64,000 bases of DNA, taken from positions 1-64,000 of the forward strand of contig CAMXCT020001791.1 of NCBI GenBank assembly GCA_947184155.2, given 5' to 3'. The stretch is from Cladocopium goreaui (taxonomy: Eukaryota > Sar > Dinophyceae > Suessiales > Symbiodiniaceae). Of the stretch, positions 22,436 to 37,045 are shown in pieces; positions within the stretch are counted from its first letter, which is position 1, and each line of letters begins with the position of its first letter. The notes beneath the pieces are model-generated. The model was not told the DNA's origin. It did not search any database and worked only from the letters and a program-made list of their open reading frames with translations. Position numbers and translations under genes: made by a program.

Positions 22436-22530
22436 TGTTTGACAGGCGAAACAGCCTAAAGACTACAGCAAGTGCACGCTTGTTTCTTGAGCCATAAGCA
22501 CAGTATAGTATGGATGAATTAAGGTATATG
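22436..22530 (-). repeat. left terminal repeat of the retroelement (3' LTR end)
   Basis: On the plus strand it starts TGTTTGACAG, then AAACAGCC and CGCTTGTTT-CTTGAGCCATA, and matches 36942-37020 block by block at about three quarters identity. Seen on the minus strand it would end in CA. A full LTR might extend to about 22810, where a purine-rich minus-strand stretch (GAAAGGAATGG) could be the polypurine tract. This is inference. Confidence 0.55.
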
Positions 22531-23081
22531 TACAGTAGTATACATGAAAAACACCCCCCGCCGCCCGCAGATTTCCGCGGAGGACGGAAGGCTAACCACG
22601 TACGCCAGAAGTGACCTGAGAGCGGACGGGTTGAAACAAGACATCACTGTACATGATTACCTACCATCTGTGCTATGTGGTCTCAGCTCGAATGCATGAG
22701 GCAAAATGAGAAAAGGTCGGATGCATTAACTTTTCAATCCATGGCAGGGCACGTGCTTGAAGAGACACAAAAGTGAAGTTGGCCTGGCTTCCGCCAAGGC
22801 ATAGGAACATTACCATTCCTTTCAATTGCCTTTGGTTCGGAAACTACTGTATCAGGCTAACCTACACGGCATCTGTACACGTGCAACTACCGCAGAGGAT
22901 CGGATGCTGGTGTCAATCTCATTGAATCAATTGAGAAAAGTTTTTCAAGTTAATCAAGTTGGAATTTCAAGTTTTGGAAATGTGTGCAATTCGATTGAAC
23001 TGAATGACCATGGGTCAGCTTTCATCCAATCGGCCAAACCTTCCGGTAGGCATAAAAATCATGGCACAAGATGTGAAACAT
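22531..23081 (-). other. retroelement 3' untranslated region
   Basis: The stretch between the last ORF stop and the terminal repeat holds no open frame. A weak match to the recurrent coding motif (ACCTTCCGGTAGGC on the plus strand) lies at about 23038. Confidence 0.45.
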
Positions 23082-26000
23082 CTACCAAGATTCAAACTCT
23101 ACCGTCCCATCATTGTAGGTGCGCTTGAAGTGCGGCTGGCCGTTGATCTCGCAGTACTCCTCAGCAATCACAACTGGTGCACGAGACACCTGTCGTGGAG
23201 GCTCTGTTGCAGGAGCTGATCCAGAGGCAGCTTGGGCAGAATCGCCAGCAGCTGGTGTTGTGTCAGGCACAGGCGTCGCTGTTGATGGTGGCCGCACTGG
23301 CTCCGGAGGAGCTGCCGAGGAGCTTGATGCTGTAGATCTTCCCCAAGGATCAGCAGTCCAACCTCGGCCAGAGTAGCCCTGATTCCAATTCCAGCTTTGC
23401 CATTGGGCCTGCCCTCCCGAGCGGCTTGAGTAAGATCCATACGAACCCCACTGTTGCCCTCGGTTCCATCCACTGCGGCACTCAAAGGATTTGTGGCCAT
23501 ACTGACCGCACTTCCAGCATTCAATGGCCTGCTGAAAGATTGGTCGCTGTTGTTGACCGTAGCCCTTGCCTTTGCCCTTGGCTGGCTTCTGAATCGGGTC
23601 AAAATGACGCCGGTATCCTTCTCGCCCTTCGCCAGTACCCGTCTTGGAGGACCTTGCCAATGGAAAATCAGCCACATCTGATGCAGTGGCTTCATCCACG
23701 AAGGAGTGTTCTTCACCCTTGATGTTATTGTATTGTTCCTTCCACTGCCTCTTTGCGAAATCGACGAGGTCGAAGAAACAATCTTGGGCTGACCCTTGAT
23801 CCACAGGCATCATTGAGCCAGACCAACCAAATAACATCGGCGTGGGTTCCCCCCTCGCTTTCAGCAAGTCCGCAGCAAGAACAGCAAATTGTGGGAGTGT
23901 AAAAACTCGTGCATGATGTGCAACCATGGCTTCCTTTGTAACGTCCAACGGGAGTCGGATGTCTCTGTTGAAGTCTGGCATGAAAATCAAACGAGTGCTG
24001 ACACCTGTTCCCAGCTGCTTTTCTCGCTTCTCTCGGGTACGGCCGACATCAGGGGCAATGCATTTTGCCAAGTCCTCCAAAAATTGGCAACAGTCGGGAG
24101 TGATCTGGCCGACCGCATTGTTAAACAAATAAAATGGGTCCTTCTCCATGCGGTCCTGGATCGACTTGAAGCCGAGCTTCGTGTATCTTCCCGCATGTGT
24201 CTGAGCAGCGTCCTTGAGATTTCCGAAATTGCTTCGTCCAGCTCGACGTTGATCTGCTCGGGTGCGGTCGGAGACTCGCTGAGCTCGAGGCTGCTTCTCA
24301 AAATCGATTTTGTCCAGAGAAAATACCTTGTTGGTTTTCTTGGCCGAGATTTCCATCCGGCATACCTCTGTCGCAATTCTTCCATCCGACCAAGCAATCA
24401 GCCATTTGAAGCACGACTGACATTTGTGGGTGCCCTCAATGTTCTGTTCGCCGCAGAAGTGGCATCGGACCTGTTGCATCTCAATCTTTGAGCTGTAGAT
24501 GTAATCCTCAGCATTTGTTGAGCGCTGGGCCTGCCCTCCCGGGCGGCTTCCCTTTCCCTTGCCTTTTCCCCGGCCCTTGCCTTTGCGAATGGTTTCGGCA
24601 TTGGACAAGGCACCAAAGGAGGCCATCTTCAACGTCACTTTGTCCTCAAAGGGTCCTGAAGTTCCTTCACGTCGACGAAGAAGTGGGGGAAGCTCTTCTG
24701 GAGAGTCGGTCACCTGCATCTGGCCGGGTCGAATGGACTTGCCGCTCATGAGGTAGGCCTTCAAACTGTCCCTGGCGTTGGCATACGGGCTCTTTGACAG
24801 TGCTTCTCTCTTCGGAGTGTCCTGGTCCTTGTGGGTCTTCATTTTGTTGTTGTACCCCACACGCGTGATCTCATAGGGGCGATTCACCCAGGCAAACTCC
24901 CTGTTGACAGCATCATATGTGCAAATGATGTTCTCGTTGGAGATCCAGTCAGGGCTTATGATTGCTTCGTCTGTACGAAACAATCGGCAGCCGCTTTGGA
25001 CGATGAGCTCGGTGTCAAAGGCAATGTAGTATTGCTTCCCGGCTCGCGTTCCCGCGAGCTTTCTGCCACCGACTGAATCATCCCATGGATGTGACGCAAT
25101 AAAGAAATTATGCGCCCTTCCTGTCCTTTGGGGCCAGCCACCTGGGATGAGACCATGTTCAACTATCTTGTCCATAGCGAGCCTGTCGCAGCTATGGTAG
25201 ATAACCCTTGGAAGTGCAGCCAGCATCTCCGGCACAAGGTCTGGACGAAGATTTGTCCTTGGCAACTTGGGCGTGTCGAGGTCGGCCTTGGTAAAGGTTG
25301 GATCCAAAGTAAACACTTCCTTCACCAGCGATGAAATTTTGGCATTTTCCACCACTGCACGGTTGTGTCCTTGGACAGCTCTGATGGCGACAACCTTCCA
25401 TGGCAAACCCTTCCAGGTTGCATCAGGCAAATCGGGCTGAGCCACTTTCACCTGAAAGCGCCTGGTGTCACTGTTGCGCACGATGGACAGGACCTCACTG
25501 ATCTTCGGGTAGGAGACGTAGTGGGCCATCGTCTTCATCACCGCCTCGAAATCCATCGAAAGATCCATGGGATCGATGTCTGGGCTGCGAGCACCATAGC
25601 TCAATGCGTGCCCCCGGAGAACATAAGATAACTTTGTGGAAAGAAATCTCAGTCGCCCTTGGCCGCAATACTCCTTGGGAATCCTGTTGATCATGTCATT
25701 GGGGTCCAACCATACTGATCCCTCTTGGCGTTCCGTCGCTTCTTCCAACTTGCGAAGGGCTGCATCAGCTTCGACACTGAGTCGTGGCGCTTTCTGTCTG
25801 GGCTGCGCTTTTGACTCTGGTGCCTTTTGCTTTTCACTCTTCGGCATTTTCTTTTCGGCCGGCTTTCCAACTGGCTTGTCAACCTCCACCTTCTTCTCGG
25901 TCTTGGTCAGGTCGACAATGGCAGTCTTGTCAGCAGGCTGTTCGGAAGAAGCAGAAGCCTCAGGAACTGCAGCATCAGTCGGCACACCCTCCCGGGCAGC

Positions 26001-36926: not shown

Positions 36927-36930
36927 TTAC

Positions 36931-36941
36931 GGCTGATAACC
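36931..36941 (-). other. candidate primer-binding site
   Basis: The minus-strand sequence GGTTATCAGCC directly follows the CA end of the terminal repeat. GGTTAT also starts the half-initiator-tRNA primer site of Drosophila copia. The tRNA cannot be assigned here. Confidence 0.4.
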
Positions 36942-37045
36942 TGTTTGACAGATTAAACAGCCCAAAACCACCAGCATACAAACGCTTGTTTTCTTGAGCC
37001 ATACATGACGAGTATAAGCAGTGAGACCTATGAAAAACAAATCCA
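36942..37045 (-). repeat. right terminal repeat of the retroelement (5' LTR end)
   Basis: Plus strand TGTTTGACAGATTAAACAGC, then CGCTTGTTTTCTTGAGCCATA and GAGTATAAGCAGTGAG. It is similar to 22436-22520. Similarity fades after about 100 bases, where a small inverted-repeat element begins at 37072. Confidence 0.55.
36993..37001 (-). promoter_or_regulatory. spliced-leader-like 3' end (TGGCTCAAG) in the right terminal repeat
   Basis: TGGCTCAAG equals the last nine bases of the dinoflagellate spliced leader. It also occurs in the left terminal repeat (22486-22494), in both cases within TATGGCTCAAGAAA. Nine bases alone could be chance; conservation at both ends makes it notable. Confidence 0.4.

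Follow-up and report, generated by a model that had tools for sequence, protein, structure and literature searches.

The window analysed here, a stretch of 64,000 nucleotides of contig CAMXCT020001791.1, contains on its minus strand a copy of a long terminal repeat (LTR) retrotransposon of a family termed F1. The element is 14,604 bp long and ends at positions 22436 and 37039. An earlier note, made from the sequence alone, had placed it at 22436–37045, which is near the measured extent, with the right end off by a few bp. A gag-pol region is followed by three segments termed ORF2, ORF3 and ORF4 (ORF, open reading frame). The host is taken to be a dinoflagellate, since the 21-nt dinoflagellate spliced leader, whose sequence is printed in PMC12014239, is found in 172 exact copies in the 1.17 Gb assembly (control, 0).

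Minus-strand reading frames of the window, as delimited mechanically, are 36904..28787 (2705 codons), 28799..27588 (403 codons), 27591..26113 (492 codons) and 26339..23082. The last has 1085 codons when read from a TTG, with about 1000 beyond the overlap. The description of the first as a 2705-codon Gag-Pol frame with copia domain order holds, i.e. the frame is present and the order of its motifs is copia-like. The earlier note also listed three tightly packed extra frames of about 403, 492 and 1000 codons, all intact. These exist mechanically in the window but are not separate genes, and the window copy is frame-broken. In the 492-codon frame (ORF3) the first ATG is not reached until codon 103, and the GTG given as its start overlaps the stop codon of the 403-codon frame (ORF2).

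ORF2–4 are covered by 29 other loci, one of which, C4565, holds the insertion seen in the window. In 21 of the 28 others (counted as loci, some of which may represent one insertion) the end of pol, ORF2, ORF3 and ORF4 are in one frame, with no indel relative to the majority over 4.4 kb; private indels are present in 7 of the 28. A search with the ORF3 protein gave 381 first-look candidates, and all 87 that were scored are matches, some copies being represented by two pieces. Eleven of the 87 lie in one open frame of 4,600 codons or more; for one of these eleven an internal TAG is recorded. Relatives display one open frame of ~3,900–4,700 codons. The domain order in this frame is Gag with CCCH fingers, protease, integrase, reverse transcriptase (RT), RNase H, ORF2, an SGNH-like domain, a KptA-like domain and zinc parts.

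Because other copies hold the end of pol through ORF4 in a single frame, ORF2–4 are read as the C-terminal part of one polyprotein and not as further genes. Separate genes after pol, expressed by frameshifting or reinitiation, would fit the tight overlaps in the window and the same frames in C4565, but C4565 is the window's own insertion, and the indel-free copies and the frames of at least 4,600 codons make this proposal extremely improbable here and rule it out for the family. It is very probable (about 0.88) that the locus is a copy of a large dinoflagellate Ty1/copia-type LTR retrotransposon that encodes one polyprotein with a conserved and selected cargo, the window copy being frame-broken and joined at its left end.

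The placement with copia is based on motif order, integrase being encoded before RT–RNase H in F1. Two results weigh against it. The RVT_2 match is weak (22 bits, under the gathering score of 31.6), and the SDN and NAQAER patterns looked for in the integrase of a second family, F3, were not found.

Table 1. Positions of the retrotransposon and its parts in the window
Feature	Position	Strand	Evidence or remark
LTR retrotransposon, family F1, frame-broken copy	22436..37039	-	LTRs, primer-binding site, frames, comparison with copies
3′ LTR as assembled, 118 bp, other LTR type	22436..22553	-	100% to right LTR of C3375, 99% to right LTR of C1657
Spliced-leader relic TGGCTCAAG in 3′ LTR	22486..22494	-	sequence match
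G-rich tract beside 3′ LTR	22554..22568	-	sequence
ORF4 part of polyprotein	23082..26339	-	frame; pN/pS 0.10 on part tested
CCHC zinc knuckle	23475..23522	-	PF00098 E 0.0012, 19.3 bits, just under cut-off 20.8
KptA/Tpt1-like domain	24960..25643	-	PF01885 E 1.5e-6, 28.8 bits, cut-off 26
ORF3 domain, SGNH-like motifs	26113..27591	-	GDS 26-28, GN 110-111, DxxH 218-221
ORF2 domain, fold unassigned	27588..28799	-	PC.GG..W and E...NC.YW invariant in F1, F3, F4, F5
Gag-pol part of polyprotein	28787..36904	-	frame, motifs
RNase H motifs DADHA, SSTEAE, ADILTK	28844..29686	-	motifs
Reverse transcriptase, YVDD	30560..31141	-	RVT_2 E 1.4e-4 and YVDD motif
Integrase HHCC and DDE-type motifs	32732..33220	-	motifs
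Protease DTGS	33785..33796	-	motif
Gag CCCH zinc fingers (Torus / zf-CCCH)	34403..34546	-	Pfam E 1.2e-8 and 3.6e-5
Pyrimidine tract and TAG, 3′-splice-site-like, just before gag ATG	36908..36920	-	sequence
Primer-binding site GGTTATCAGCCGTA	36928..36941	-	adjoins 5′ LTR; all 14 nt identical in F3 (C1693) and F4 (C2768)
5′ LTR, 98 bp, TG..CA	36942..37039	-	same sequence as the identical LTR pair on C4565 (same insertion)
Spliced-leader relic TGGCTCAAG in 5′ LTR	36993..37001	-	sequence match

Ends of the element and the assembled copy

The LTRs of the window copy are unequal, 98 and 118 bp. The earlier note named no LTRs, and a search confined to the window found no pair because the two ends are unlike. 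LTR length is 97–119 bp at loci with both borders cleanly parsed. Among 11 loci with both ends (the window and C4565 counted separately, though they are one insertion), identical TG..CA LTRs with 5-bp target duplications are found at six: C4565, C1657, C1488, C302, C5893 and C622. The window copy as assembled does not show this pattern. It is one of the five loci with unmatched LTR ends, the others being C3375, C435, C6159 and C5982; the mismatch in C6159 was judged by eye, its right border being unparsed by the script. Of 12 left ends, 11 have CCCCCC (plus strand) next after the LTR; C6159 has CCCCCTTT instead.

C4565 has the right flank of the window and is 99.4% identical to it over a piece that includes ~600 bp of this flank. 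The two copies are 99.5% identical and have three of the window's indels in common. The fourth window indel is a deletion at the same place in both, 17 nt in the window and 23 nt in C4565. A mobile sublineage of broken elements was considered as the source of these shared frame breaks; it is ruled out, as the two are the same insertion.

C4565 has identical LTRs and AATCC on both sides. The left flank of the window, ATAGT, is the sequence that follows the right LTR of C3375. The left part of the copy in the window therefore stems from a different insertion, the join most likely having arisen in assembly. The switch lies between 22832 and 24616. The near-identical cores would also permit a real recombination between two insertions with no assembly join, and unmatched ends occur at five of the 11 loci. 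However, long cores of this kind mislead assemblers too, and C4565, which shares the right flank, has paired LTRs and the duplication; a real exchange is therefore considered unlikely. More generally, the proportion of loci with unpaired ends suggests that joins or exchanges within near-identical elements are common in this assembly.

Other repeats were seen in the window. A dispersed ~105–110-bp repeat is present in both orientations at 8940, 10064, 14590, 16448, 17505, 43652 and 59823, and also beside other copies of the element. Long TATC/ATCT tetranucleotide arrays are found at 45421–46246 and 49226–49989.

Domains encoded after pol

The earlier note proposed a distinct lineage and, as a check, a test of whether the ORF order is kept next to related pol genes. 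Among families inside this one genome it is kept. The order ORF2, SGNH-like, KptA-like is common to five families, four of which are known from one locus each. In C1693 (F3) the RT (47% identity), RNase H, ORF2 (36%), ORF3 and the KptA-like domain (1.3e-12) are in one open stretch; its ORF3 part gives a weak blastp signal (E 0.30) and was recognised by alignment. C2768 (F4) has RNase H, ORF2, ORF3 and KptA in one open stretch, and in C1335 (F5) the part from ORF2 to KptA occupies the frame after that of RNase H. C282 (F6) displays ORF2 (43%), ORF3 (27.5%, E 2.7e-26) and ORF4 (23.5%, E 5e-35) within a single 1,785-codon stretch; the piece fetched begins within ORF2, and pol and RNase H lie outside it. 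In C1914 (83% in ORF3) the beginning of ORF4 is in the frame of ORF3.

The ratio pN/pS over 21 indel-free F1 copies, at least 4 of which have an internal stop, is 0.06 for the RNase H end, 0.18 for ORF2, 0.09 for ORF3 and 0.10 for the part of ORF4 tested. Values of 0.09–0.18 indicate that the cargo is under purifying selection. As divergent families share the cargo order and selection is purifying, the cargo probably serves the element's own cycle. The enzyme cargo may have been captured as a module, as the earlier note had suggested.

The core of ORF2 shows 34–43% identity in four other families, and no relatives were confirmed in viral contigs or in bacterial and archaeal genomes. A methyltransferase-like fold, as first claimed for ORF2, was not borne out: there is no significant match in Pfam, PHROG or PDB sequences, and neither Pfam nor a profile comparison gave a match to the C5 DNA methyltransferase family. 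The methylase-like PC motif is suggestive only. ORF2 might be a degenerate C5-type DNA methylase that methylates element cDNA, as proposed for the Symbiodinium element SymbioDIRS-Dnmt3. The PC motif is invariant in ORF2, and the best profile register sets it on the PC of Dcm. But the comparison with C5 methylases is not significant (E 0.064, probability 0.9%) and Pfam gives no methylase match, so that such a function is doubtful.

ORF3 was described earlier as an SGNH hydrolase. SGNH blocks carry GDS, GxND and DxxH. A partial set of these motifs stands in order, while profile support is lacking: ORF3 has no Pfam or PDB-sequence match, and its comparison with TesA, which has GDS and GGND, is not significant. 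Ser, Asn, Asp and His are kept in order across F1, F3, F4, F5 and F6 as GDS/SDS, GN(D/E) and DxxH. Block I is SDS in C1693, C2768 and C1335, the Ser of C1693 being seen in only one of two ORF3 alignments. In block III the first Gly gives way to A, S or F.

The KptA-like enzyme reported for ORF4 is upheld by the PF01885 score, which exceeds the cut-off (28.8 vs 26 bits); L066 gives 48.6 bits. An alignment of F1, C1693, C2768 and C1335 shows an RxxQGH stretch and three of the four residues of the Arg-His-Arg-Arg tetrad to be kept. The tetrad His is replaced by Gly in all four of these families (F1, F3, F4 and F5). This speaks against an active enzyme, the tetrad of KptA/Tpt1 being described as essential in PMC6333775. 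The same source reports that mutation of the equivalent His in the Runella enzyme makes step 2 only threefold slower. As this mutant is only mildly slowed, a domain without the His might still have 2′-phosphotransferase activity.

The KptA-like and SGNH-like domains may process RNA ends, e.g. of the primer or of packaged RNA, but this assignment of function is rather unlikely to be correct as it stands. With regard to the primer, the 17-mer ACAGGTTATCAGCCGTA, which holds the shared primer-binding site (PBS), has 1,074 exact sites in the genome (control, 0). The complement of the PBS can be read as an anticodon arm cut after position 40, and the candidate primer RNA would end in TACGGCTGATAACC. 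Drosophila copia is primed by a half-tRNA. A search for such a primer with an anticodon-arm pattern, 2 mismatches being allowed, returned 4 matches vs 8 in the control, and the two loci fetched contained no tRNA. Were a cut tRNA the primer, a phosphate would have to be removed from its 3′ end, and it may be speculated that the KptA-like enzyme does this.

A search of the genome for KptA gave 1,496 first-look candidates, of which 150 were scored. Three of the 150 resemble cellular enzymes, and several others lie in frames of 2,400–2,760 or ~4,020–4,040 codons. L065 (G000:C2057:362200-371200) is an unrelated retroelement with DIRS-like RT/RNase H features, as judged by eye, and a strong KptA match (2.6e-25). 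A stretch of it looks possibly methylase-like by eye and has no Pfam match. Together with the copia lineage, L065 shows KptA joined to two retroelement classes in one genome. L072 (G000:C5927:55200-60200) has a KptA domain in a 701-codon open stretch, for which blastp (E up to 0.01) gave no match to the other families compared. Bacterial-looking KptA genes are found on G000:C1 and C5523 (L077 and L076); contig C1 (7.38 Mb) may represent bacterial contamination in the assembly.

The spliced-leader relic in the LTRs

Both LTRs of the window copy contain TGGCTCAAG, which corresponds to the 3′-terminal 9 nt of the spliced leader. This relic is present in 19 of 19 LTR ends from ten copies that were picked by ORF4 similarity, the relic not being required (a twentieth piece stops short of the LTR). 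In an LTR alignment that did not demand the relic, it is conserved between variable flanks. In 13 distinct LTRs the 9 relic columns are invariant vs 29 of 118 other columns, an invariance that is by construction, as these LTRs were located via the relic. The match to the leader is 9 nt in 69 of 86 LTR rows, 10 nt in 16 and 11 nt in one. Genome-wide, a relic–PBS pattern gives 160 sites (control, 0) and a TGTT–relic–PBS pattern gives 181 matches (control, 0), a number inflated by overlapping starts.

The unique LTR parts on the two sides of the relic, U3 and U5, were compared at 46 loci having letters for both. Across the relic, U3 and U5 similarity show correlations of 0.15 and 0.11 in the two LTR classes, vs 0.42 and 0.72 between the halves of U3 and 0.46 and 0.40 between the halves of U5. 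There are 13 pairs in which U5 is at least 95% alike, and U3 is below 80% in 11 of these. Conversely, U5 is below 80% in 9 of the 13 pairs in which U3 is at least 95% alike. The half-against-half control gives 0 of 10 inside U3 and 0 of 13 inside U5, and neighbouring halves across the relic give 7 of 10. These counts describe a point of switching between U3 and U5 that coincides with the relic. Template switching at the repeat (R) shuffles LTRs in LTR elements generally, and the data therefore place R at the relic. R is proposed to derive from the trans-spliced leader.

The process may be envisaged as follows. The genomic RNA would be trans-spliced to the host spliced leader, and the 3′ end of the leader would act as R for first-strand transfer. 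Minus strong-stop DNA would jump to the matching 9–11 nt in the 3′ LTR, often that of another co-packaged RNA, and a jump at the relic would swap U5 against U3. That the trans-spliced leader serves as R in this manner is the explanation favoured here, with some reserve.

Alternatively, the relic may be an ordinary encoded R at which transcription starts, its likeness to the leader being accidental. Any LTR element is expected to shuffle U3 and U5 at R, the leader match is short, and F3 and F4 are without the relic. Yet the last matching nucleotide is the final one of the leader, the relic is kept amid varying flanks and spans two LTR classes (the LTR of C282 belongs to the second), and dinoflagellate retrogenes are known to carry such relics (PMC12014239). 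A chance resemblance is judged somewhat improbable, though far from negligible.

Several points weigh against a leader-derived R. The relic is absent from the LTRs of C1693 (F3) and C2768 (F4), so it is not clade-wide. The genome-wide patterns and the relic-located LTR set demand the relic and cannot show how often it is absent. The U3/U5 pairs share loci and are not independent; the counts are descriptive and are not significance tests.

The pyrimidine tract and TAG before the gag ATG are found in 11 of 11 F1 leaders (10 insertions; C5754 is not covered) and not in F3 or F4. They form a possible trans-splice acceptor for a translation mRNA. Lying between the PBS and the gag ATG, such an acceptor could yield an mRNA used for translation only, without R, U5 and PBS. 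The wider proposal, that the lineage has handed R to the host spliced leader, that U3 and U5 reassort there, that the acceptor may give the translation mRNA and that the SGNH-like and KptA-like domains are a pair acting on RNA ends, is put forward tentatively, at a little below even odds.

If the leader does serve as R, an LTR element needs the trans-splicing of its host in order to be reverse-transcribed. The chemistry of the element would then recognise leader-tagged RNA, a point relevant to the accumulation of leader-tagged retrocopies in dinoflagellate genomes.

Comparison with known systems

No description of this element, of its KptA cargo or of a leader-derived R was found in the literature searched, a search that covered few subscription journals and left preprints outside, and the accessible portions of Alexandrium and review papers have nothing on such elements. 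Work on heat-activated copia in S. microadriaticum is cited in PMC11453091. The present element would add a large, apparently recently active copia class with a conserved enzyme cargo.

DNMT-bearing DIRS and LINE elements are described in Symbiodinium, where Copia is stated to lack any DNMT domain (PMC5890265). SymbioDIRS-Dnmt3 and SymbioLINE-Dnmt are similar to the present element in that they are dinoflagellate retroelements having an enzyme domain by RT, under purifying selection. They are, however, other element classes, and the main text of PMC5890265 contains neither KptA nor phosphotransferase.

The ORF4 domain resembles KptA/Tpt1 RNA 2′-phosphotransferase in its PF01885 match over cut-off and in three tetrad residues, but it sits in a retroelement polyprotein and its tetrad His is replaced in the aligned copia families. 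KptA is also found within polyproteins of positive-strand RNA viruses, where repair of RNA ends has been proposed (PMC9503650). These are not retroelements, and the main text of that paper is without the words "retrotransposon", "retroelement" or "dinoflagellate".

Cer1 of C. elegans is likewise an LTR element with an SL1 trans-splice acceptor (PMC3315495). That acceptor, in contrast, was found not to be used for trans-splicing in its 8-kb gag-pol RNA, and the available portion of the paper says nothing of a leader relic in the LTR.

With Ty1/copia (Pseudoviridae) the element has in common integrase before RT, YVDD, RNase H, TG..CA LTRs, 5-bp duplications and a single gag-pol frame. Unlike Ty1/copia, it has CCCH fingers in Gag, a C-terminal cargo, a spliced-leader relic in the LTR and a frame of about three times the usual length.

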